DNA of 64,000 bases from Myxococcales bacterium (GTDB taxonomy: Bacteria; Myxococcota_A; Polyangia; Haliangiales; Haliangiaceae): contig JAEUJY010000143.1 in assembly GCA_016794525.1 (NCBI GenBank), forward strand, positions 1-64,000, given 5' to 3'. Shown one piece after another: positions 5,226-64,000 of the stretch. Position 1 is the stretch's first letter. Every line of letters starts with the position of its first letter. Under the pieces are notes generated by a model. It ran no database searches. It was not told where the DNA came from and saw nothing but the letters and a program-made list of their open reading frames with translations. A program made the position numbers and the translations under genes.

Positions 5226-8200
5226 TCACTCTTGATCGCCGCGGTGGCGCTGCCAGCCGCCGCGGCCGTGGGCGTAGACGTGCATGTAGGCGGCGCAGCT
5301 CTCGATCGTGCGCGTGTCGAAGTGCATGAAGTCGCCGGCCTGCTCGCCGGGGATGTCGCTGCCGCCCCACGCCAGCCCGCCGGCGTCGCGCAGCGCGCGC
5401 ACCAGCTCGAGGTGGTGGTCGGTGACCGTCATCGACGTGCGGGCGCCGGCGCCGGTGCGCTCGAAGTTCGAGCCGCGCGAGGCGTAGGCGCGGTAGTCGG
5501 CGTCGATCTGCGCGCGCCACTGCGCGGCGGTGGCGGTGCGCAGCTCCTCGTGGAGCGGCACCGCGAAGGCGTCGCCAGGGTCGGCGTGGTTGGCGTGCGA
5601 GTGCGCCGGGCGCGGGGGCAGCGCGCGCGCCGCCATCGCCGCGACGGTGGCGGTCCCGGCCAGCCACGCCTCGATCCGCGGCAGGTCGTTGCGCGCCGCG
5701 AGGTAGTCGTGGAGCTCTGACGACACCGCCGTGGCGTGGGCCCAGATCTGCTCGGTGGTCTCGCGGCCCGGGCGCGCGGTCATGTCGGCGGTGCTGTAGG
5801 TCTCGCCGCGGCCGGTGAGCCACGCCGCGCGCCAGATGATCGCCATCGCCTCGTCGTTGCGCCGGTCCTGCTCGGCGTCGATCGCCTGGCGGCGCGCGCG
5901 GTCGTCGGGGGTGAGCCGGGCCGGGTCGCCGCGGAGGCCGTCGGGCACGTCGGCGGCCTGGCCGCCGACCCACGGGTTGCTGTCGTAGTTGATGTCGATC
6001 GCCCAGCCCTTGGCGTGGAAGCTGCCGCCGCCGCGCAGCACGCCGAAGCGCGGCGACACGCCCAGCTGCTGCCGGATCTGCTCGGGGCTGCGACCGGGGA
6101 AGCGCTGCTGCAGGTAGGCGTCGGCCGCGGCCAGCCGCTCGAGCAGCAGCGGGTGCGCCTGATCGATCGCCACGCCGAGGAAGCTGCCGGCGCGGAACTG
6201 CGCGCGGATCGCGGCGTCGTTGGCCCACGGGCCGCGGACGCTGCCGTCGGAGGTCAGCGTGGCGCCGGTCGCGAGCTCGGCGTGGGCCTGGCCCAGCGCG
6301 GCGAGGGTGGCGTCGTCGAGGATGCCGGTCGGCGTCGCGTGCATCGTGTCGCGCTGGAACACCGCGATCTGCTGGACGGTCGGCTCGTTGAGCGCGCCGG
6401 TGGCGGCGGTGCCGGTCACGCCGAGCGCGCGTTGCAGCGCGGCGATCCAGGTCGGGGCCAGCCGCGTCGCGCGGCCGCTGTCGACGTTGAGCGCGCGCAC
6501 CGCGGCGCGATGCTCGAGCGGACCGCCGGTCTCGGCGATCAGCGCCTCGGGCGCGCGCGGCAACGGCGCCGCCGGCGCGCCGCTGGCGAGGTAGCGGACC
6601 GCGACGTAGCCGGTGTCCGCGCCATGGCGGACCTGCGCCCCATCGCCCTGCACCGCGAGGATCTCGACGGCCTCGTCGCGATCGAGGCGGCCGATCTCGG
6701 GGCCGGTCAGCGAGTCGCGGTGGAAGCGCACGCCGTCGCCGGTGACGTGGCCGGGGCCCGGCGCGAGGCCTTGCGGCTGGGGCTGCGCCTGCTGCTGGGG
6801 CTGAACCTGCTGCTGCGGCTGGGCCTGCGGTTGCGCTTGCGGCTGGGCCTGCGGCTGCGCTTGCGGCTGGGCCTGCGGTTGCGCTTGCGGTTGCGCCTGC
6901 GGTTGCGCTTGCGGCTGGGCCTGCGGTTGCGGTTGCGCTTGCGCCTGCGGTTGCGCCTGCTGCTGGGGCTGAACCTGCTGCTGCGGCTGGGCCTGCGGTT
7001 GCGCTTGCGGCTGGGCCTGCGCCTGCGCCGGCGCCGTCAAGGCGATGCGCCGCGGCGAGTCGCCGAACCGCGCGAACAGGCGGTCGTAGCGTCGCCGCAC
7101 GCCGACCTGGCTGGCGGCGTTCACCATGCCGACGATGCGATCGGCCACCGCCTGCAGCAGCGCGCGCTCGTCGCCGGTGCCGCGCGCCGCGATCAGCGCC
7201 GGTACGAAGTCGAGGCTGCCGTGCTGGTGCGCGGCGTTGGCCAGGACCTCGACCGCGAGCTGCGACACCGTGCCGTTGGCGTCGACGAAGGGCCAGCGCG
7301 GATCGAGCCGCGCGATGCGATCGAGGTAGTGCGTGAAGTCGACGTGCAGCTGCTCCGCGTCGGCTGCGCGCAGGAACGGCAGCGCGCCCTCGGCGGTCTC
7401 GAACTGCTGGATCTCGGCCGCGCTCAGGCGCGGGCCGACCCAGTCGCCGTCGTGGCGATCGAGCTCGCGGCGATCGCTGAACCGCTGCACCAGCGCGGTC
7501 CACGCCGCCTCGCCACCGAAGTGCGCGTGGAGCTGCGCGAGCTGCCCCGCGGCGGTGGCGTGGGCCTGGTAGCGCCGCAGCAGCTCGCCGACGCGGCCCT
7601 GGGTCCAGCTGCCGAGCCCGACGTTGGTCCGGTTCGAGTCGGCGGTGTAGTGGCCGGCGCGGCCGCTCGACTCGCTGGTCGCGAGCAGGCCCATCGTCTC
7701 GCGCTCGACGACGGCCGCGTCGCCCGCGCCGGCCGAGGCGGCGGTGAGGTGGCTGGTCGCGACGTAGCCGGTGTCGGCGCCGTGGCGCACCTGGGTCCAC
7801 GTAACGTCGCCGCCCAGCACCTGCACGTACGTGCCGCGCGGCAGCGCCGTGCCGATCGCCGGGCTGCCGGTGCTGGCGGCGGTGTGGAGGCGCAGGCTCG
7901 ACGCGGCGACCTGCGCGGCGCCCGCCGGCAACGCCGCGGCCGCGGCGGGTGGATCGTCGCTGCGCGGCGCGGCGTCGCGGGGCGTCGCGTCGGCGGCCGC
8001 GGGCGCGTCGACGCGCACCAGGTCCTGGCGGATCCAGCCGGTCACCGCGGGCGTCGCGATCGTGACCGGCAGCCAGCCGTCGCGCGCGGCGCCGGAGACG
8101 TCCAGCGCGGTGCCGGTCGGCACGCGACCGACCTCGCGGCCGTTGGGTTGGTCGCGCACGCCCACGCTGCCGCCGTCACGGTTGAACGTGTGGCCGCCGT

Positions 8201-8759
8201 AGAAGCCGAGCGGCGCCGCGCCGGCGCCCCGCGCCAGCGGGAACGCGCGCCCCGCGGTCCACGCGTCGGCCGCGCGATCGGCCTCGCCCTCGCGGTCGCC
8301 GCCGGCGTCGCCCTGCGCGACGTGGGCCAGCTCGTGGGCCAGCACGTGCGGGTCGTCGTCGGCGACGTACACCCGCCGGCCGTGGGCCGCGCCGCGGACG
8401 CCGAGGCCCGCCAGCGCCGCCTGGGTCGCCGGGCCGCGGAACACCTCGGCGTCGACGCCCACCCGCGCGGCCAGCGCGCCGCCGGCCGCGGCGCCGTCGC
8501 GCTCGGCGGCCGCGGTCAGCTGCGCGGACGTGTCGAGGTGGAGGCCGAACGGATCGGCGGTGGGCGCGACCACCGTCGCGCGCGCCGGCGCGGGATCCGG
8601 ACGCGCCGCGGCCGACGTCGCGCCGTGCGCGGCGATCGCCCGGGCGATCGCGCGGGCCGACGGTGGCTGGCGGCCGGTGAGCGTGCGGACGCCGGGGCGG
8701 CCGCTGGCGTCGCCGTCGGAGGAGAAGTCGGACCCAGCGGCGGCGTCGTGGAGCAGCAT
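5226..8759 (-). CDS. DUF4157 (eCIS-core) protein with SH3 repeats and M15-type peptidase
   Basis: A 1177-residue multidomain protein. It has an N-terminal DUF4157 domain with HELAH at 142-146 (zinc-protease-like HExxH), found in proteins associated with extracellular contractile injection systems. Two bacterial SH3-like domains follow at about 190-250 and 286-340. A helical domain at about 350-590 begins with TSESSGRAGHYTAD, which could be a lysozyme-like fold. A Gln-Ala-Pro repeat linker spans about 595-665, then a third SH3 and a peptidoglycan-binding-like segment. The C-terminal peptidase has FHAKGWAID near 915 and GDFMHFD near 1143, matching the zinc ligands of M15 L-Ala-D-Glu/D-Ala-D-Ala endopeptidases. 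No signal peptide is seen, which fits delivery by an injection machine or lysis. No eCIS structural gene lies in the window. Confidence 0.8.
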   Translation of the reverse strand: MLLHDAAAGSDFSSDGDASGRPGVRTLTGRQPPSARAIARAIAAHGATSAAARPDPAPARATVVAPTADPFGLHLDTSAQLTAAAERDGAAAGGALAARVGVDAEVFRGPATQAALAGLGVRGAAHGRRVYVADDDPHVLAHELAHVAQGDAGGDREGEADRAADAWTAGRAFPLARGAGAAPLGFYGGHTFNRDGGSVGVRDQPNGREVGRVPTGTALDVSGAARDGWLPVTIATPAVTGWIRQDLVRVDAPAAADATPRDAAPRSDDPPAAAAALPAGAAQVAASSLRLHTAASTGSPAIGTALPRGTYVQVLGGDVTWTQVRHGADTGYVATSHLTAASAGAGDAAVVERETMGLLATSESSGRAGHYTADSNRTNVGLGSWTQGRVGELLRRYQAHATAAGQLAQLHAHFGGEAAWTALVQRFSDRRELDRHDGDWVGPRLSAAEIQQFETAEGALPFLRAADAEQLHVDFTHYLDRIARLDPRWPFVDANGTVSQLAVEVLANAAHQHGSLDFVPALIAARGTGDERALLQAVADRIVGMVNAASQVGVRRRYDRLFARFGDSPRRIALTAPAQAQAQPQAQPQAQPQQQVQPQQQAQPQAQAQPQPQAQPQAQPQAQPQAQPQAQPQAQPQAQPQAQPQAQPQQQVQPQQQAQPQPQGLAPGPGHVTGDGVRFHRDSLTGPEIGRLDRDEAVEILAVQGDGAQVRHGADTGYVAVRYLASGAPAAPLPRAPEALIAETGGPLEHRAAVRALNVDSGRATRLAPTWIAALQRALGVTGTAATGALNEPTVQQIAVFQRDTMHATPTGILDDATLAALGQAHAELATGATLTSDGSVRGPWANDAAIRAQFRAGSFLGVAIDQAHPLLLERLAAADAYLQQRFPGRSPEQIRQQLGVSPRFGVLRGGGSFHAKGWAIDINYDSNPWVGGQAADVPDGLRGDPARLTPDDRARRQAIDAEQDRRNDEAMAIIWRAAWLTGRGETYSTADMTARPGRETTEQIWAHATAVSSELHDYLAARNDLPRIEAWLAGTATVAAMAARALPPRPAHSHANHADPGDAFAVPLHEELRTATAAQWRAQIDADYRAYASRGSNFERTGAGARTSMTVTDHHLELVRALRDAGGLAWGGSDIPGEQAGDFMHFDTRTIESCAAYMHVYAHGRGGWQRHRGDQE
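6772..7031 (-). repeat. in-gene Gln-Ala-Gln-Pro tandem repeat
   Basis: Short units encoding QAQP/QPQ (with QQQVQP variants) are repeated through about 85 codons of the DUF4157 protein. At DNA level the + strand reads as degenerate GCTGGGCCTGCGGTTGC-type units. There are longer internal duplicates: the segment encoding QQQVQPQQQAQ occurs twice. It acts as a flexible linker between the helical domain and the third SH3 domain. Confidence 0.9.
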
Positions 8760-8823
8760 GCCTGCCGCTGGAACGCGCGGCCCGGCCGATCTTCCCGGCC
8801 GATCTTCCCGGCGATCGCGATCG

Positions 8824-9906
8824 TCAGGCGTGCGCGGCGGCGAACGCCTGCATCGCCTCGACCAGCGCCTGCACGCCGCCCAGCTCCATCGCGTTGTAGA
8901 TGCTGGCGCGCATGCCGCCGACCGAGCGGTGGCCGGCGAGGCCCGACAGCCCGCGCGCGGTGGCGAACGCGACGAACGCGGCGTCCTCGGCGGCGTTGCG
9001 ACCGCGGAAGGTCACGTTCATCTGCGAGCGCGCGTCGGCGCGGACGACGCCCTTGAACACCGGCGAGCGATCCAGCTCGGCGTACAGCAGGTCGGCCTTG
9101 GCGCGGTTGCGCGCGGCCATCGCCGGCAGGCCGCCGAGCTCGTCGATCCACCGCAGCACCTCGGCCAGCACGTAGATGCCGAACGTCGGCGGCGTGTTGT
9201 ACATCGACTGGTTGGCGGCGAACGTGCGGTACTGCAGCATCGTCGGCAGGTCGCGGGCGCCCTTGGCCACCAGCTCCTTCTTGACGATCACCAGGGTCAC
9301 GCCCGACGGGCCGAGGTTCTTCTGCGCGCCGGCGTAGATCAACGCGTAGCGCGCGACGTCGATCGGCCGGCTGAAGATGTCGCTCGACGCGTCGCACACC
9401 AGCGGCACGCCGGCCGGCACCGCCGGCTCGCCGGTCCACTGCGTGCCGTAGATGGTGTTGTTGCTGGTGAAGTGCGCGTACGCCGGCGCCGTCGACCAGG
9501 TGGTCTCGGCGGCGCCGGGGATGTACGTGTGGCCGGCGGCGGCGCTCGAGCACGCGACGTGGACGGTGCCGAACCGCCGGGCCTCCTCGACCGCCTTCTC
9601 CGACCACACGCCGGTGACGCAGTAGTCGGCGGTGGCGCCGCCGAGGAAGTTCATCGGCACCATGAAGAACTGCGACGAAGCGCCGCCCTGCAGGAACAGG
9701 ACGTCGTAGTCGTCGGGCACCGCCGCCAGCTGGCGCACCAGGGCCTCGGCCCGGGCCAGCACGGCCATGAACTCCTTGCCGCGGTGGCTGTGCTCGAGCA
9801 CGCCGATGCCGCTGCCGTCGAGATCCCACAGCGCCGCCTGGGCTCGTCGCAACACCGCCTCGGGCAACACCGCCGGACCCGGCGAGAAGTTCCACGTCCG
9901 CGTCAT
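8824..9906 (-). CDS. serC: phosphoserine aminotransferase
   Basis: A 360-residue class-V, PLP-dependent aminotransferase that converts 3-phosphohydroxypyruvate to phosphoserine in serine synthesis (and works in pyridoxine synthesis in many bacteria). The start ([21 protein letters not shown]) and the segments SHRGKEF, FLQGGAS and [13 protein letters not shown] are the family hallmarks. The PLP lysine lies in [12 protein letters not shown]. Full length for the family. The ATG at 9906 is chosen; a GTG just before it (9909) would add one residue. The gene stands between the lysin gene and a small unknown gene, with no serA or serB nearby. Confidence 0.95.
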
Positions 9907-10354: not shown

Positions 10355-11616
<1,262 letters not shown>

Positions 11617-11617
<1 letters not shown>

Positions 11618-11985
11618 CACATCACCATCGACATGATCAGGATGACGATTGCGGCGACGGCGACGATCAGCGCCATCACCAGGAACCATCCCAGTACCAT
11701 CGCCAGGCCCGCCAGCGCCACGCCCGCGACCGGCAACACCAGCGTGCTCTCGCGGCGCGCCACCGACACCACCCCCAGCACCAGCGCGAGGCCGAAGAAC
11801 GGCACCGTCAGGCGGTGGTCGGGCATCGACCACAGCGGGTCCTGCACCATGAAGGTGACGACGAAGCCGACCGCGCCGACCACCAGCGCCGCCAGGCCGG
11901 TGGCGTTCTTCGCCACCCATTGCGCGGCCGGCTCGGGGCCGGCGGCGGCGGTCGCCGGGCGCAGCGACGGATCGGGCGTGGACAT
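11617..11985 (-). CDS. small four-helix membrane protein
   Basis: A 122-residue protein. After a Pro/Ala-rich cytoplasmic N-terminus of about 25 residues it has four hydrophobic helices, ending in LIVAVAAIVILIMSMVM. The helix arrangement resembles small DUF4190-like membrane proteins but no family is certain. A TATAGT hexamer lies 6 bp upstream of the start. The downstream synthase gene overlaps by one base, so the two are expressed together. Confidence 0.7.
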
Positions 11986-11991
11986 GCCCGA

Positions 11992-11997
11992 ACTATA
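11992..11997 (-). promoter_or_regulatory. candidate -10 element (TATAGT), leaderless
   Basis: TATAGT on the minus strand ends 6 bp before the ATG at 11985 and overlaps the stop codon of the upstream 878-residue gene. It would start a transcript at or next to the start codon of the membrane protein-synthase operon. Confidence 0.4.
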
Positions 11998-14625
11998 GCG
12001 CCCGGTTGGCGTCCGCGGTGATGCCGAGCGCTTGCCGCAGCTTGCGGAACTCGGTCGAGGCGGCGAACGCGGCGAGGTCGCCGTCGGCCGCGTCGGCCAG
12101 GCCCAGCGCCACCGGGATGTCGCCGCACACCAAGAGGCCGAAGCGATCGGCGGTGCGCCCCAGCGACTGCGCCCACCGCGACAGGTTGTGCTCGGGCGAG
12201 CGGGCGAACAGCCGCCCGACCAGGCCGCTGGCCTGCCGGCGCACGTCGCCCGGCAAGAGGTCGAGCGCCGCGGTGATCTCGTCGGGCGGCCGCGGCGTCG
12301 GCGTGGTCTCGCGGAACAGCGCCATCACCAGGCTGCGCAGCGTGCGCGCCGGCCGCGACGCGCCGATCGCGCGGCCCGGCCACAGGAACGTCGAGGCCCG
12401 GCCCAGCCGGAAGCCCAGGGTCGCGCGGTCGGGCGCGGTCAGCGCGTCGTCGCCGGCCAAGAGCACCAGCTCCTGGGTGGCCCCGACGTGGACGTCGGCG
12501 CCGAAGTCGGGGTGCGCGAACACCGGCGGCACCGGCAAGCCGAGCAGCTCGGCCATGTAGTTGCGCAGCGCCGCGAACGCCGGCGGCAGCTCGGCGTCGG
12601 TCAGGCGCGCCGCCGGATCGACCGCGAGGTCGGCCAGCGTGATCGGGTGCAGCGCGTGGACCGCCGGCGCCAGCAGCTCGGCGAGCGCGCCGATGTCGGC
12701 CTCGTCGTCGGGGTGGTGCAGCAGCGCCCACAGCTCGCGCGACAGCGTCGTCCGCGCCCGGGGCACCGCGCGCGGGCGCAGCTCGTCGTAGGTCAGCCGC
12801 TCGCCCTCGGTCGGCTCGCCGGCCGCAACCGCCAGCGACGCGGCGATGAAGTCGGCGTCGCTGGTGCGCCCGGGCAGCGGCGTCGGGATGCGGCGGATCG
12901 GCCGCGACACGCCGCCCAGCCGCGCGGCCTGGGCGTAGGCGTTCTTGGCCGCGGCCGGCTCGTCGAGGTGATCGCTGTACAGCGCGCCGAGCCGCTGCCA
13001 GATCGCGGCGTGATCCTGCGGGGTGCCGGCGCCGGCGCGCAAGAGCCGCCGCAGCGCGCGCTCGAGGGCGCGGCCGGCGCCGCGGCGCAGGTACAGCGCG
13101 GCGATGCCGTCGAGCACCTGGGCCTCGCCGGGCACCGCCCGCGCGGCGCGCTCGAGGTGATCGAGCGCCGCCTGATCGTCGACGCCCATCGCCAGCTCGA
13201 TCAGCCCGAGGTGCTGGTGGGCGACGCCGAGGTTGGGCGCGACCCGCAGCGCGCGGCCGAGGTAGGCGCGCGCGGCGTCGGCGGCCTCGGGCGTGCGCTC
13301 CTCGCGGTGCCACACCGCCCAGCCGAGCCCGGCCAGCGCGTCGGGATCCTCGGGCCGCAGCCCGAGCGCCGCCTCGAACTTGCTGGCCGCCGCCGCGGCG
13401 TCGCCGCGGGCCAGCAGATCGAAGCCGGCGGTGCGCAGGCGGTCGCTCTCGACGCCGCGATCGGTGAGGTCGCCGCCGGCCAGCTCGCGGTCGTAGGCGG
13501 CGCGGCGCTCGTCGGTGAGCAGCACCTCGCGCGCCTGCTCGTAGGCGGCGTGGAGATCGTCGAGCAGGCTGGCGTCGTTGCCGAGCTGGAACCGCGCGTA
13601 GAAGTCGCGGGCGAACATGCTCTGGCGCTCGGCCACGGCCGCCGCGATCTCGAGATCGCCGGCGTGGGGATCGACCAGCAGCACCGCGTAGTGGTCGAGG
13701 TCGCGGATGCGCAGCGCCTCCGAGGTCAGCGCGGTGCGGGCGGCCCGGGTGGCGTCGTCGTCGAGCAGGTCGTTGTCGAGCGCCTCGTCGGCGAGGTCGA
13801 GCGGATCGCCGCCGGTGGGCATCGGCGCGATCGTCGACAGGCCGCCGAACAGCTCGGCGTACAGCGGCGAGCGCTCGCCGGTGTCGCCGCTGCGCAGCGC
13901 CAGCGCCGGGCCGACCCGCGGGATCGCCGGCACCACCGCGTCGGTCAGCACCAGCGCGTCGACCACCGCGGCCGGCAGCCCCTGCTCCATCAGGCCGCGG
14001 GCGGTGACCCCCTCGGGCAGCCGCTCGGGCACCCGCGCGCCGTAGATCGCGCGGAACAGCGGCACCAGGCGCTGGCCGCGCGGCGTCAGCTCGAGGAACA
14101 GATCGGCGAGGAGCTGGCTCGGCGGCGGCCCCTCGCTCGACGTGTCGCGCAGGCCGGTCAGCACGGTCTCGGGGATCGACAGCACCAGCCCGTCGGGCGC
14201 CAGCGGCCGGGTCTCGAACCGCCAGGCGCCGTTGGTCCAGCGCAGCGGCGACAGCAACCGGTAGCGGGTCTGGGCGGCGAGCTGCTCGAGCAGGCGCTCG
14301 GGCGTGAGCAGGCCGGCCTTGACCAGCGCGTCGCCGACGCCGCGGCCGGTGGTGTGGGCCTCGGCGACCGCGGCCTGGTGCTGCGCGGTGGTGATGACGC
14401 CGCTGGCGACCAGGAAGTGGCCGAGGGTCTCGTCGCGCCCGCTGGTCGCGACCAGCTGGCCCTCGTACAGCTCGATCGTCTTGACGACGCGATCGCGCCG
14501 CACCAGGAAGCGGCCGGTGATGCCGGCCTCGTGCAGATCGAGCAGCACCGCCGGCAGCGGTCGCAGCTCGAGGTCGCCGGCGTGGCGGACGCCGTGCGCC
14601 GCGGGGCCCGGTCGCGATTCGTCGC

Positions 14626-14629
<4 letters not shown>
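11993..14629 (-). CDS. PATAN (DUF4388) protein with degenerate J-like domain and TPRs
   Basis: An 878-residue cytoplasmic protein. The N-terminal DUF4388/PATAN module (about residues 18-150) contains the usual [21 protein letters not shown] and [18 protein letters not shown] segments. A segment near 320-400 ([14 protein letters not shown] ... [14 protein letters not shown]) follows the J-domain pattern but lacks the HPD tripeptide. TPR-like helices follow ([18 protein letters not shown] and similar), then an uncharacterised C-terminal region. PATAN proteins are involved in phosphorelay and motility signalling in myxobacteria and cyanobacteria. The gene overlaps the upstream ABC ATPase gene by ATGA, so it is in the transporter operon. 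Confidence 0.75.
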
Positions 14630-16679
<2,050 letters not shown>

Positions 16680-16730
16680 CGCGACGACGATAGCGCAGCG
16701 GGCCGCGCGCCACGGCGCGGCGTCCCCGAA

Positions 16731-16759
16731 AACGAAACGCGGCGACCGAGGTCGCCGCG
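16731..16759 (-). terminator. rho-independent terminator of the RRM gene
   Basis: On the minus strand a perfect 9-bp GC stem (CGCGGCGAC with GTCGCCGCG, 4-base loop) is followed by TTTCGTTTT. It lies 44 bp beyond the stop of the RRM gene and just before the Opp/Dpp operon. Confidence 0.6.
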
Positions 16760-16802
16760 CGCCGTCAGAGTGGGAAGCCCCGCTCTTTTTTACGCTACCG
16801 GA

Positions 16803-17318
16803 TCACCCGCGGTAGCCGCCGCCGCCACCGCCGCGACCGCCGCGACCACCACGGCCACCGCCGCGGTCGCCGTAGCCACCGCCGCCACCGCCGTCGTAGC
16901 CACCGCCGCCACCGCCGTAGCCGCCGCCACCGCCGCGGTCACCACCGCCGCCGTAGCCGCCGCCACCACCGCCGTAGCCACCGCCACCGGCGCCACCGCC
17001 ACCACCGCGGTAGCCGCCACCGCCGCCACCGCCGCGGAAGCCGCCGCCGCCACCACCGCCGCCACGGGCCGGGCGCTCCTCGGCCTCGTTCACGCGCAGG
17101 GGACGGCCGTCCAGCATCTGCCCGTCCATGCCCTCGATGGCCTTCTTGGCCTCCTCAGGAGTGCCCATGGTGACGAAGCCGAAACCACGGGGACGACCGG
17201 TCTCGCGGTCGCTCACCAGGTGGACGTCCGAAACTGCGCCGAACTCCTCGAACGCAGCGCGGACCGTCTCGGTCGACGTGTTGAAAGAAAGGTTGCCAAC
17301 GTACAGACGGGTGCTCAT
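16803..17318 (-). CDS. glycine-rich RRM RNA-binding protein
   Basis: A 171-residue protein with one N-terminal RRM domain (residues 1-80). RNP2 is LYVGNL and RNP1 is RGFGFVTM, both intact with their aromatic residues. A C-terminal tail of about 85 residues is almost wholly Gly with scattered Tyr, Arg and Asp. Such glycine-rich RRM proteins occur in myxobacteria and cyanobacteria and bind single-stranded RNA, often in cold or stress response. The approximately 200-bp AT-richer region upstream fits a regulated 5' leader. A terminator follows at 16731-16759. Confidence 0.95.
16806..17070 (-). repeat. Gly-rich codon repeat of the RRM protein
   Basis: The + strand is a long run of GCCGCCACC-like triplets coding for Gly (with Tyr and Arg) in the RRM protein tail. 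It also creates long Ala/Val open frames in other readings, which are artefacts. Confidence 0.9.
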
Positions 17319-17614
17319 CTCGATCTCGCTATCCTCTGGCCTTCGTCACATGACACCGCGCTCGAGGGGCCGACCTCGCTGGCGGTTCGCAGTCAGAGCT
17401 GCAACCACTGCTTGCCGAACCGTCGCTCTGCGTGTCCGAGAGGCACAAAGACCCGAGACCCGAGATGAATCGACCGATCAAACCGTGGCGATTCCGCTTT
17501 TACCTTGGCCCTGAAACGCTCGCAAGAAGGATCGTCGGCGCGCGTTGACAATCCCGCGGCGGCGGGGCGTCACTCCGGACGATCACCAACGATCTTCACC
17601 TGTTGGTGAGGCCG
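17319..17614. other. intergenic region; leader of the RRM gene
   Basis: About 296 bp without a gene. The part next to the RRM gene (17319-17520) is lower in GC than its surroundings and probably holds the RRM promoter and a long 5' leader, with an AGAGG/GAGATCGAG site before the ATG. An inverted repeat TCACCAAC/GTTGGTGA at 17583-17609 lies just 3' of the neighbouring lipoprotein gene and could end its transcript, although no T-run follows. Confidence 0.4.
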
Positions 17615-18409
17615 TTATTTGCAGGTCGCGACCCCCGGAAGCTCCATCTGGAAGCTCTCCGCGGGGATCTCCAGGCCCAGCTCCCGCTGGTTCCACTCGA
17701 CGATCAGGTCCGATTTCTCGCCCGGCGAGCGGAAGCGCGACTTGTCCGGGACGCGGCGCGGGGTGCCCGCCGCGTCCTTGACGGTCGAGAAGCCGGTGTT
17801 GTCGATGCGCCACTCCTGGACGCCGGCCGCGGTCTTGACCTCGCTCGAGATCACGTCGGCCCGGCCGTCGCGCGCGTCGAGCACGATCTGCTGGGTGCGG
17901 CCGTCGTCGCCGGTGAGCTCCAGCACCTCCTTGCCGGCGCCCGCGTCCCAGCGCACCGTGCCCTTGGCGCCAGGGATGATCGGCGTCGCGCCGACGGCGA
18001 GGGTCATGAAGTCGTCGGGGGCCAGCGCCACCCGCAGCATCTGCGCGATGGTGTCCTTGCTGCACGGGCCCGACAGCTGGCAGTTCTTGTTGAGGTCGAC
18101 GAACGCGTAGTCGGTGCCGTCGCACGCGAGGTCGCTCATCGTCGACTCGCCGGCCGGCGACAGCGCCTGGATGCGGACCTTGGCGCCGGTGGTGCCCATG
18201 ATCGCGACCGTGCCCTTCACCCGCTCGTCGTTGAGCCAGTAGTCCATCGTGGTGTCGTTGGCGCGGAACGACGTCACCTGGTCGGCGGTGGCGGTGATGC
18301 GGGTCAGCAGCTCTTCGACGGTCAACGGCGCGTAGGGGCGCTTCGACGGGCCGTGGCTGCAGGCGGCGAGAGCGAGCGCGGCGGCGGCGGGGAGGGCGAT
18401 GCGGAGCAT
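17615..18409 (-). CDS. lipoprotein, DUF4292/LolA-like
   Basis: A 264-residue lipoprotein: the signal peptide ends in ALALAACSHG, with lipidation at the Cys. The rest is beta-rich, with segments such as YWLNDERVKGTVAIMGTTGAKVRIQ and DLACDGTDYAFVD. Its length and strand pattern fit the LolA/LolB-like lipid-carrier fold (DUF4292), but this is inferred from pattern only. The ATG at 18409 is chosen because it begins the signal peptide. The gene probably stands alone. Confidence 0.7.
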   Translation of the reverse strand: MLRIALPAAAALALAACSHGPSKRPYAPLTVEELLTRITATADQVTSFRANDTTMDYWLNDERVKGTVAIMGTTGAKVRIQALSPAGESTMSDLACDGTDYAFVDLNKNCQLSGPCSKDTIAQMLRVALAPDDFMTLAVGATPIIPGAKGTVRWDAGAGKEVLELTGDDGRTQQIVLDARDGRADVISSEVKTAAGVQEWRIDNTGFSTVKDAAGTPRRVPDKSRFRSPGEKSDLIVEWNQRELGLEIPAESFQMELPGVATCK

Positions 18410-18590
18410 GACGAGGTGATAGCAGAACGCGCCGGCCCGCCGCGCGCTTACGCCGCGCGACCGCACGCGGCGGCGATGGCGATCACGCCGCGCGCGCCCG
18501 CCGCCCCGCCGCCGTGAATCGCGCCGCCCGCCCCGCCGTCCTACCGCGCCGCGCCGCGCCCCAACGTGGCTCGCGCTACTGCCGCTCGCG

Positions 18591-61225: not shown

Positions 61226-64000
61226 TCATTCCCCGCCCGCAAACGGGATCAAAACGAACTCGCGCGGGTTGCCTTCGCTGTCGCGCAGCGTGATGGTGAT
61301 CCCATTGCCGTATTTCTGGCTGATGGCTGTCATCTTTGGCATAACTGATTTGTCTGGGGCTCTCCGGTCATAGCCGGGCGCGACATGGTCTACTAATGGC
61401 TCAACGATCTTCCGGTCACCCGTAACGAACCGTGCAGGGCCGCCCTTGGCGAAGAGGGCATCCGCGATGATTGAGCGGTCGCCAGCACCGGCGGGGCCGC
61501 CGACCTTGAGCCGTTCGAGTTGTCCTAGCATGTCCTTGTAGATGTCCGACTCGCGGGACACGGAGATCGTGAAACCTCGTTGGTTGATCATTGCGCCGTG
61601 TTGCGCCTCGGCCAAGATCATGTTGGACAGGCGGATGTCTTCAACTCCGATCAGTGAATGCAGGTCGCGTGCCGGTGGCGGTGTCGTGCGGGTAAGTGGT
61701 GGCTTGAGGCCATTGATCGCTCTCAGCCGGTTGATCGCCGCGAGGCGGGCATCGTTGAGCTCACTCCAGGGCATGTTGCTCACCGCTTCGGCCAAGGCGT
61801 TGACCACGTTCGTATCCGCGATGAGCGAATCGGTCGAGAGCTCCACCGCGCGATCAATGATCGGGCGCGCGTTGTCAAGACGCTCTGCCTGAGGCTTCAG
61901 CTTGGCGAGCGTCTTCTCTTTGGGCGCGCTCTCCGCCAGGTGATCCGCAGTGGTCTTCGTACCGAGCAGCTCGACATCGGTCGCCACGTCGCCGCCGGAC
62001 AGCGGGGGCACGACCTTGGCGATCGTGTCCTTGCCGATGACGGAGACGAGGTGCGCGGCCTCCTTCGCGGGGATGTCGCCGAGGGCCGTCAGGGTCTGCG
62101 TCGGGAGGGACTCGAGCAGGCCCTTGGCCTGCGGGCCGAGGCTGTCCTCGGCCCAGCGCACGACGTCGGGGCCGTGCTCGTCGACGAACTTCGTGCGGTC
62201 GGGGTACGTGTAGGTCGTCTCGGGATCGGCGGGGGGGCCGGCGTCGTCCGGCTTGTGCGTCGAGCGCGTCACGTCCGGCGGTGCCTCGCCCGGCGTCCGC
62301 GATCGCCACTTGGCTGGAATGGCGGTGGGCTCGACCACGTCGCCGAGGGCCGGGTGGCGGATCGACCACATCGTCTGGGTCTCGATGTGATCGCCGCCGG
62401 CGCTGATGATGACCTGCGCCTTGTAGACCGGGATGTCGGGGTTGCCCTCGAAGTCACCGACCAGGTCGGGGCGCTTGAGCTCGAACTCGATGCGCGGCAG
62501 CCCCTCGTCACCCGGGCCCGGGTTGCGGATGCGGCCGGTCTTCTTGTCGAACACGTAGGGCGTGACCACGACGTGCCGCGGGACGCCGTTGTGCGCGCAG
62601 TACCCGAAGTCCGCCGCCGACGGCAGCACCAGGCCGCGGTTGATCGCGCCCGAGGCGTCGGTCGAGCCCTTGAGCAGCTCCTTCAGCTTGAGGCCCTTGC
62701 CGCGGAGCTGGCGGCTGGGCGTCATGTGGTGGCTGTGGGCCAGGCCGACCACGTCGGGAAGCTTGCCCCAGTCGACCTCGCCGGCGGCGCCCTTGACGAT
62801 GACGTACTCGTTGCCGCGGCGGCCAAGCCCCCATTCCACGCCGGGCGCGTCGAAGTCGTCGCCGATATGGACGCCGATGGCCGCGAAGCCCTCGGGATCG
62901 CCCGCCGCGATCTTGCGCATCACGTCGAGCCCGACGGTGTGATCGGCGACGGGCGCGCCGACGACGATGTGGCGCTCGCTGGCGATGGCCGCCGCGTCGA
63001 AGCGTGGGGTCAGCGAGTCGGTCGAGATCGCCGGGCGGCGCTTGGGCGCCGAGGGGTCGGCGACCTGCCGGTGACGCCAGACCGCGTCGAGGATCTCCTC
63101 GCGCGGCGTTCCTGGCGGCGCGGTGACCTCGAAGCCGTCGCCGGTCGAGGTCACGGCGAGCTTGTCACCAGGCTGCACGACGACCTTGGTCGCGTCGACG
63201 CCGAGCACCTCGGCCACCTCACGCCCGCGTGTCGCGAGGTCGGTGACGTATGCCTTCTGCAGACGCTCGATCTCGAGGAAGCCGAGCTCGTCGAGGTTCT
63301 CGGGGACGACGATCTGGCCGTGGGTCGGATCGTAGTAGGGCTTCTTGAGGTCGGGCTCGTGCCGCAGCACGTTCATCGCCGCCAGCTCTTCGAGCTTGCT
63401 CGTCATGATGTGCGAGCTGATCTTGGTGAACGCGAGGTTGGGCGCGACCATGATGGCGCCTTGCTTCACCATCGTGTCGAAGAGGCGCGTGCCCTCCTCG
63501 CGCGTGCGCGTGATCATCGCCTCGAGGTCGCGCTTCCGCTGCGGCATGTCGGGGTGCGACTGGTTGTTCGGATCGTCGATCCACGCCTGGAGCTGGGCGA
63601 TCTCGGCGATGTCCTTGTCGCGGATGTGCTCGAGTTGACGGAGCCCGTCCACCGTAACCAGCGCTGCGGCGCCGGCGATCTGGACATCGTCGATGATCAT
63701 CATCGTGCGCGATGCGCTCTTCAGGAACGGCTTGGCGCGACCGAGGAACGGCAGCAGGTCCATCGCGATCTGGCCGATCGCGGCCGCGGTGTCCCAGGTC
63801 GTGACGGTCCCCTTCTGCCGCATCGTCTCGAGGTTGTCGAGCGTATCGACGGCGTTGTAGGCGGCGAGCGCCAGCATCACCGCCGGGGCCGACACCGGGA
63901 AGAACACCATCACCACCGTGCCGGCGATGTTCACGGCGATCTGCACGGTCGGGTCCCAGACCACCGACTTCACGTCCTTCCAGACGCCGCCAGTGTCGAG
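61226..64000 (-). CDS. polymorphic-toxin-like protein with JAB-type motif and C-terminal PIN domain (partial)
   Basis: An open frame of about 924 residues that runs off the right edge (a GTG at 63973 is only one possible internal start). A hydrophobic helix pair near the N-terminus (VQIAVNIAGTVVMVFFPV) resembles translocation segments of large toxins. In the middle (about 62600-62735) are a GLAHSHHMTPS and a LPSAADFGYC, matching HxH...S..D of JAB/MPN-type metalloproteases. The C-terminal 200 residues form a PIN nuclease: DTNVVNAL, LAEAQHGAM, GDRSIIADAL and TGDRKIV supply the four acidic residues. A helix-rich, Pro-linked region connects them. The N-terminal part outside the window may hold a DUF4157 or other delivery domain. 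Confidence 0.75.
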   Translation of the reverse strand, partial: LDTGGVWKDVKSVVWDPTVQIAVNIAGTVVMVFFPVSAPAVMLALAAYNAVDTLDNLETMRQKGTVTTWDTAAAIGQIAMDLLPFLGRAKPFLKSASRTMMIIDDVQIAGAAALVTVDGLRQLEHIRDKDIAEIAQLQAWIDDPNNQSHPDMPQRKRDLEAMITRTREEGTRLFDTMVKQGAIMVAPNLAFTKISSHIMTSKLEELAAMNVLRHEPDLKKPYYDPTHGQIVVPENLDELGFLEIERLQKAYVTDLATRGREVAEVLGVDATKVVVQPGDKLAVTSTGDGFEVTAPPGTPREEILDAVWRHRQVADPSAPKRRPAISTDSLTPRFDAAAIASERHIVVGAPVADHTVGLDVMRKIAAGDPEGFAAIGVHIGDDFDAPGVEWGLGRRGNEYVIVKGAAGEVDWGKLPDVVGLAHSHHMTPSRQLRGKGLKLKELLKGSTDASGAINRGLVLPSAADFGYCAHNGVPRHVVVTPYVFDKKTGRIRNPGPGDEGLPRIEFELKRPDLVGDFEGNPDIPVYKAQVIISAGGDHIETQTMWSIRHPALGDVVEPTAIPAKWRSRTPGEAPPDVTRSTHKPDDAGPPADPETTYTYPDRTKFVDEHGPDVVRWAEDSLGPQAKGLLESLPTQTLTALGDIPAKEAAHLVSVIGKDTIAKVVPPLSGGDVATDVELLGTKTTADHLAESAPKEKTLAKLKPQAERLDNARPIIDRAVELSTDSLIADTNVVNALAEAVSNMPWSELNDARLAAINRLRAINGLKPPLTRTTPPPARDLHSLIGVEDIRLSNMILAEAQHGAMINQRGFTISVSRESDIYKDMLGQLERLKVGGPAGAGDRSIIADALFAKGGPARFVTGDRKIVEPLVDHVAPGYDRRAPDKSVMPKMTAISQKYGNGITITLRDSEGNPREFVLIPFAGGE

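Follow-up and report, generated by a model that had tools for sequence, protein, structure and literature searches.

Gene and domain layout

We analysed a window of 64,000 nt, that is, the whole stretch of DNA covering positions 1-64,000 of the forward strand of contig JAEUJY010000143.1, which belongs to a Myxococcales bacterium (GCA_016794525.1; genome G000 in our set, 9.8 Mb in 177 contigs, 97% complete). The gene studied here occupied positions 5226-8759, where it was the best-scoring coding open reading frame (ORF), and encoded a protein of 1177 aa from an ATG start. As a first-pass annotation of the window had stated, this single ORF, with exactly those limits, combined a DUF4157 domain carrying HELAH, three SH3 domains and an M15-type end, and both Pfam and motif analyses agreed with it, with eCIS_core, PG_binding_1 and Peptidase_M15_4 scoring slightly under their cut-offs in the protein search; the strand had to be corrected to minus. 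The features are listed in Table 1. DUF4157, represented in Pfam by eCIS_core, points to the extracellular contractile injection systems (eCIS), which are phage-tail-like injection particles.

The DUF4157 domain was divergent. HELAH (residues 142-146) opened the sequence HELAHVAQG (142-150) and was followed by EGEADRAADAW (157-167), so that HExxH, the Q behind it and an acidic helix were all present, and E157/E159 might possibly serve as the third metal ligand. HELAHVAQG was also kept in loci L105, L106 and L107. The eCIS_core stretch exceeded the 22-bit cut-off in the genome search (27.2 bits), and the closest ortholog passed it as well (23.6 bits). The eCIS_core call was retained because of these two motifs and these two scores. 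The three SH3_3 stretches matched Pfam with an E-value of 4.6e-17, and the model of the third matched bacterial SH3 structures with Z ~7 over 59-67 residues.

Table 1. Features of the 5226-8759 gene, the second eCIS_core protein of the window and the eCIS loci of the genome
Feature	Residues	Position	Strand	Basis or content
Whole gene, DUF4157-SH3-SH3-(helical segment)-linker-SH3-PGbinding-M15 protein	1-1177	5226..8759	-	ORF, translation, Pfam
N-terminal cargo-type tag region, hydrophilic, MLLHDAAAGSDFSSDGDASGR-PGVRTLT-GRQPPSARAIARAI...	1-43	8631..8759	-	Position-specific scoring matrix (PSSM); layout shared by about half of the DUF4157 proteins encoded in the genome
Tag core PGVRTLT (consensus PGK[RS][TS]LT)	22-28	8676..8696	-	N-terminus comparison, PSSM
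Divergent DUF4157/eCIS_core	103-170	8250..8453	-	Pfam PF13699, 21.7 bits in the protein, 27.2 bits in the genome search; ortholog over cut-off
SH3_3 domain 1	~190-252	8004..8192	-	Pfam SH3_3; boundaries by eye
SH3_3 domain 2	287-338	7746..7901	-	Pfam best stretch
Helical segment of unassigned kind	340-575	7035..7742	-	No library match; poor model
Pro/Gln/Ala-rich linker	576-663	6771..7034	-	Degenerate 12/24-bp tandem repeat
SH3_3 domain 3	~668-728	6576..6758	-	Pfam; modelled SH3 fold
PG_binding_1-like repeat	778-822	6294..6428	-	Pfam 20.1 bits, under cut-off 23
M15-like module, probable Hedgehog/DD-peptidase fold; H915, D922, D1143, H1146	860-1177	5229..6182	-	Zinc-motif conservation, model
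Second, divergent eCIS_core protein, cut by window end		61226..64000	-	1819-aa ORF; core domain at contig 66227-66388
eCIS locus C34		~33-59 kb		Sheath, tube, T4_baseplate, Pvc16_N terminator, AAA ATPase, hub, spike OB domain, gp25, small DUF4157 protein
eCIS locus C149		~8-41 kb		Two sheaths, tube, CIS_tube, hub, gp25, baseplate J, small DUF4157 protein

An N-terminal tag shared by DUF4157 proteins

When the N-termini of the DUF4157 proteins were compared, a common layout emerged, in which Met and 20-27 residues preceded [PAV]-G-K-[RSAV]-[TS]-[LM]-T, often followed by x-[RG]-[LM]. A regular expression found this tag in 18 of the 41 other DUF4157 ORFs of the same genome. Several further ORFs had looser PGK forms (PGKRHRT, PGKRPRT and PGKVTRV), and variants occurred in C113:264917 (PGKASMT-QRMPASARAIARAVAAAM) and C145:8800 (PGRSTLT-GRMAPSARAIARAVVDQM). 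The codons of the tag varied between copies, indicating that the motif was kept at the protein level. Scored with a PSSM built from 38 other instances, the tag of the 1177-aa protein reached 18.0 bits; 477 further proteins from the genome stayed at or below 8.2, and none of 20,000 shuffles attained 18. Two orthologs with DUF4157, L105 and L106, kept the tag at 12.0 and 16.6 bits. The first 35 residues were hydrophilic (mean Kyte-Doolittle value -0.49, rank 49 of 477), and the N-terminus carried neither a Sec signal nor a hydrophobic stretch. The earlier remark that the protein has no signal peptide is thus correct for Sec but missed the cargo-type tag. Tag carriers in this genome comprised the N-termini of about 20 DUF4157 ORFs (for example L075, L076, L077, L081 and L091), together with L118 and L121, in which DUF4157 was not detected.

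The association was then measured at DNA level. A broad pattern, PGK-x-x-[LMFV]-T, had 18 sites in the own genome and one in the reversed control. Thirteen of the 18 were N-terminal: eleven belonged to DUF4157 proteins and the other two to proteins without detected DUF4157 (C69:28971 and C99:27002); the latter protein appears, from reading its sequence, to contain a peptidoglycan-binding-like stretch. The correlation of the broad pattern with the number of DUF4157 matches was only moderate (rho 0.42, control -0.17), because many chance sites fit this pattern. The strict pattern PGK-[RS]-[TS]-LT was much cleaner, with 67 sites in 56 related genomes against 8 for its reversed control. In the 11 genomes having at least 20 DUF4157 matches there were 58 strict sites and no control site, while the 21 genomes without any DUF4157 (eCIS_core) match yielded 0 and 4, respectively. 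In 23 of 30 sampled loci, a Met preceded the motif by 21-33 residues. Roughly half of the 23 had an HExxH within the next 150 residues; the others showed none in the short flank. Judged by these sequence statistics, the motif is real.

A 2024 study of eCIS cargo reported that an N-terminal signal is needed, yet detected no specific conserved sequence (PMC11297309). Our literature search found no report of PGK[RS][TS]LT, its sole match being an unrelated peptide-array study. With odds that we regard as about even, PGK-[RS]-[TS]-LT placed 20-33 residues after Met would be a sequence-defined loading signal for eCIS cargo of this myxobacterial lineage, acting with or without DUF4157, so that some 40-70 scattered proteins per genome would be addressed to one or two particles; the 1177-aa protein would be one of them, with a slightly degenerate tag. 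The motif might instead be a processing site, or a place where DUF4157 or a chaperone docks. Common ancestry of paralogous cargo accounts for some of the similarity, but the tag outlasts the remaining N-terminus and sits on proteins with differing downstream parts. The tag makes the choice of cargo by eCIS particles directly testable and gives a means to list cargo genes distant from eCIS operons. It is, in our opinion, a more interesting result than the 1177-aa protein itself.

The eCIS loci and the DUF4157 repertoire of the genome

The first-pass annotation had tied its idea of injection to the presence of eCIS genes in the genome. Two eCIS loci were found, on contigs C34 and C149, and the idea therefore survives. 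In addition, eCIS_core matched the genome 46 times, in about 42 ORFs spread over about 30 contigs, the 5226-8759 gene included; 14 control genomes gave no match. Within the same genus (G000-G006) the number of matches ranged from 23 to 70 per genome, mostly dispersed. These counts are far above the published example of a rich genome, cited in a study of 1249 eCIS genomes, which had 18 predicted toxins, half of them with DUF4157 (PMC11297309).

In most of 20 scanned DUF4157 proteins, eCIS_core was the sole Pfam domain. C116:32692 (L079:5257-8250) differed in joining the tag (VGKRSLT) and a full DUF4157 (98 bits) to SH3_3 and a Peptidase_M15_4 domain over its cut-off (43.6 bits). No BLASTP similarity linked it to the 1177-aa protein, from which it is also distinguished by its canonical DUF4157 and its short canonical M15_4. 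On sequence grounds, C116:32692 is a second, independent union of tag, DUF4157, SH3_3 and M15_4. The stretch KLEVSxPxDAxExEADRAADAMVRG occurred in it three times.

A second, partial toxin-like protein had also been reported in the window. It had an eCIS_core match of its own, and it was partial through the window end alone, the complete ORF running on contig C6 to ~66.7 kb. As DUF4157 genes are numerous and dispersed in this genome, it is plausible that both proteins use one delivery machine. The N-terminus of this second protein lacked the PGK tag; it shared with that of L097:4657 the stretch YxAxCDxxVxxFLxxPLPxTPSEREA, which perhaps marks a second N-terminal class. With regard to the structural genes, the C149 locus (L043, C149:1-20000; 8321-9511, 11437-13188 and 13683-18410) contained two different sheath genes, and its tube and CIS_tube genes flanked a 1575-aa ORF to which Pfam gave no match. 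Away from both eCIS loci, two ORFs of 331 and 362 aa (L048 on C54 and L049 on C2) carried tandem tube-like (Phage_T4_gp19) domains.

The C-terminal M15-like module

The peptidase motifs recognised earlier, FHAKGWAID and GDFMHFD (1142-1148), were confirmed. Together they formed the zinc motif HxxxxxxD...[DE]xxH, with H915 and D922 in the former and D1143 and H1146 in the latter, and the H and D of HxxxxxxD as well as the whole of GDFMHFD were invariant in 9 of 9 sequences of the module. Searching the 56 related genomes with pieces of the protein placed the module in seven genomes besides G000, including three from the same genus. The closest relative (G002) was 71% identical over the module and had the same general layout without segment 340-575. 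L069, which ended at a contig edge, and L070 combined a divergent DUF4157 with SH3 and M15, and L071 combined a canonical DUF4157 (83.6 bits) with M15. A scan of GTDB contigs with the module returned the same loci (Myxococcales, Kofleriaceae, Deltaproteobacteria metagenome-assembled genomes (MAGs) and an uncultured delta proteobacterium) and one Nitriliruptoraceae MAG. The latter locus (L112), from an actinobacterium by name, was among the nine invariant sequences, and its presence may reflect transfer between phyla or a contig in the wrong bin. No match to the module appeared in phage or plasmid collections, and the full-length protein had no relative in GTDB contigs, viral contigs or phages. 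Matches of the full protein to PDB sequences by phmmer were set aside as low-complexity (circumsporozoite protein), and NCBIfam matches (EntFM and related) were discounted, since they covered the SH3 part alone and lay far under cut-off.

An AlphaFold model of the module from the nine sequences had a pLDDT (predicted local distance difference test) of 60 overall and 70-88 in the core. The first Foldseek list for the C-terminal model contained nearly only SH3 domains with E >0.4; a second look matched model residues 175-485 to Hedgehog N-terminal domains over 97-102 residues, with a root-mean-square deviation of ~3.3 and Z 5.9, which is under 8. Hedgehog N-domains and M15 peptidases belong to one Hedgehog/DD-peptidase superfamily. 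Like M15C/VanY-type peptidases and phage endolysins (PF13539), the module has the HxxxxxxD and DxxH zinc motifs, probably this fold, and cell-wall-binding partners; unlike them, it has an insertion of ~200 residues between the motifs and a score under the Pfam cut-off. From motifs, probable fold and partner domains, we infer that its substrates are stem peptides and that it is most likely a peptidase of the L-Ala-D-Glu or D-Ala-D-Ala type.

Cargo of the eCIS or a lysin of another kind

We consider the 1177-aa protein to be a predicted cargo effector of the bacterium's own eCIS with a peptidoglycan-hydrolysing end, with a probability of about 0.62. This was also the core of the first-pass proposal and remains the best-supported reading, given the two eCIS loci, the DUF4157 domain and the tag; the lysozyme-like part of that proposal found no support. 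The hydrophilic leader with its PG[KV]RTLT tag, aided by DUF4157, would direct the protein into the eCIS tube, and the released particle would fire into or onto a neighbouring bacterium. There, the SH3 and PG_binding_1 parts would hold the peptidoglycan while the M15-like zinc peptidase cut the stem peptides, thereby weakening the wall. The protein resembles the eCIS-associated toxins (EATs) of the DUF4157 type (PMC8213781, PMC11297309) in its hydrophilic leader, HExxH DUF4157, long linker and C-terminal enzyme domain, and differs from them in its divergent DUF4157, its gene far from the eCIS operon and its sequence-defined tag. One of the EATs tested in published work, EAT10, is predicted to hydrolyse peptidoglycan and was more toxic in the periplasm (PMC8213781). 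The 1177-aa protein would join a small set of peptidoglycan-directed eCIS cargo, which suggests that the lineage employs its eCIS against other bacteria.

Several observations weigh against this assignment. The gene is an orphan on a 132.6-kb contig separate from both eCIS loci; a profile search of the genome found no eCIS structural gene on this contig, and neither an eCIS gene nor an obvious immunity gene adjoined it. Of the known EATs, 88% are encoded no more than about ten genes away from an eCIS operon (PMC11297309), which is not the case here. The lack of an immunity gene fits a peptidoglycan enzyme, since such an enzyme would be harmless in the producer's cytoplasm. In the protein search, the best eCIS_core stretch (residues 103-153) scored 21.7 bits, just under the Pfam cut-off, and the tag has V where the consensus has K. 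With 1177 residues and several folded domains the protein is large for a tube lumen, although loading of the Photorhabdus virulence cassette (PVC) with a cargo of >1,100 residues has been reported (PMC11297309). Finally, Peptidase_M15_4 (PF13539) scored 20.3 bits at residues 912-932, under the cut-off of 25 (18.8-23.1 bits in the relatives), no solved relative was found by sequence search, and in three relatives (L072, L073 and L074) the module is accompanied by neither DUF4157 nor the tag, indicating that it is not tied to eCIS.

The orphan position and those three relatives, which do have SH3 or PG-binding parts, could also be explained by a peptidoglycan lysin outside eCIS, freed during predation by lysis, outer-membrane vesicles or another secretion route such as the type VI secretion system (T6SS), some of whose effectors also contain DUF4157 (PMC11297309). 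We regard this as unlikely, because the tag and DUF4157 are common to a large dispersed protein set and the tag tracks DUF4157-rich genomes. Somewhat less probable still is that the module cuts another peptide or serves in binding, as Hedgehog proteins of the same fold might suggest. Its Pfam score under cut-off, the large insertion between both zinc motifs and the modest Z of its best fold matches, the Hedgehog N-domains, agree with such a role, whereas the conservation of every zinc-motif residue in nine divergent sequences and the SH3 and PG_binding_1 domains on the same chains argue for a peptidoglycan enzyme. An action within the own species, in which the module would remodel or lyse the producer's wall for particle release or development, seems very improbable to us. 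The absence of an adjoining immunity gene would suit it, and so would the Streptomyces contractile injection system (CIS), which is reported to influence sporogenic differentiation of its producer (PMC11126660). However, an unexported cytoplasmic protein would not reach the peptidoglycan, and the tag and DUF4157 group the 1177-aa protein with varied cargo-like proteins.

Segment 340-575 and neighbouring genes

The segment between the second SH3 domain and the linker (TSESSGRAGHYT...) had been described as lysozyme-like. Nothing similar to it turned up in Pfam, PHROGs, PDB sequences, phages, plasmids, viral contigs or the 55 other related genomes. It was missing from the closest ortholog (G002), and its single-sequence structure model was too poor for use. 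Since neither the libraries nor the model gave support, the name should be dropped; the segment may be new or have diverged beyond detection. In its immediate surroundings, the 5226-8759 gene lay 64 bp behind serC on the same strand and was convergent with a neighbour encoding a protein with HEIGHTLGLDH, labelled metalloprotease-like from reading its sequence.

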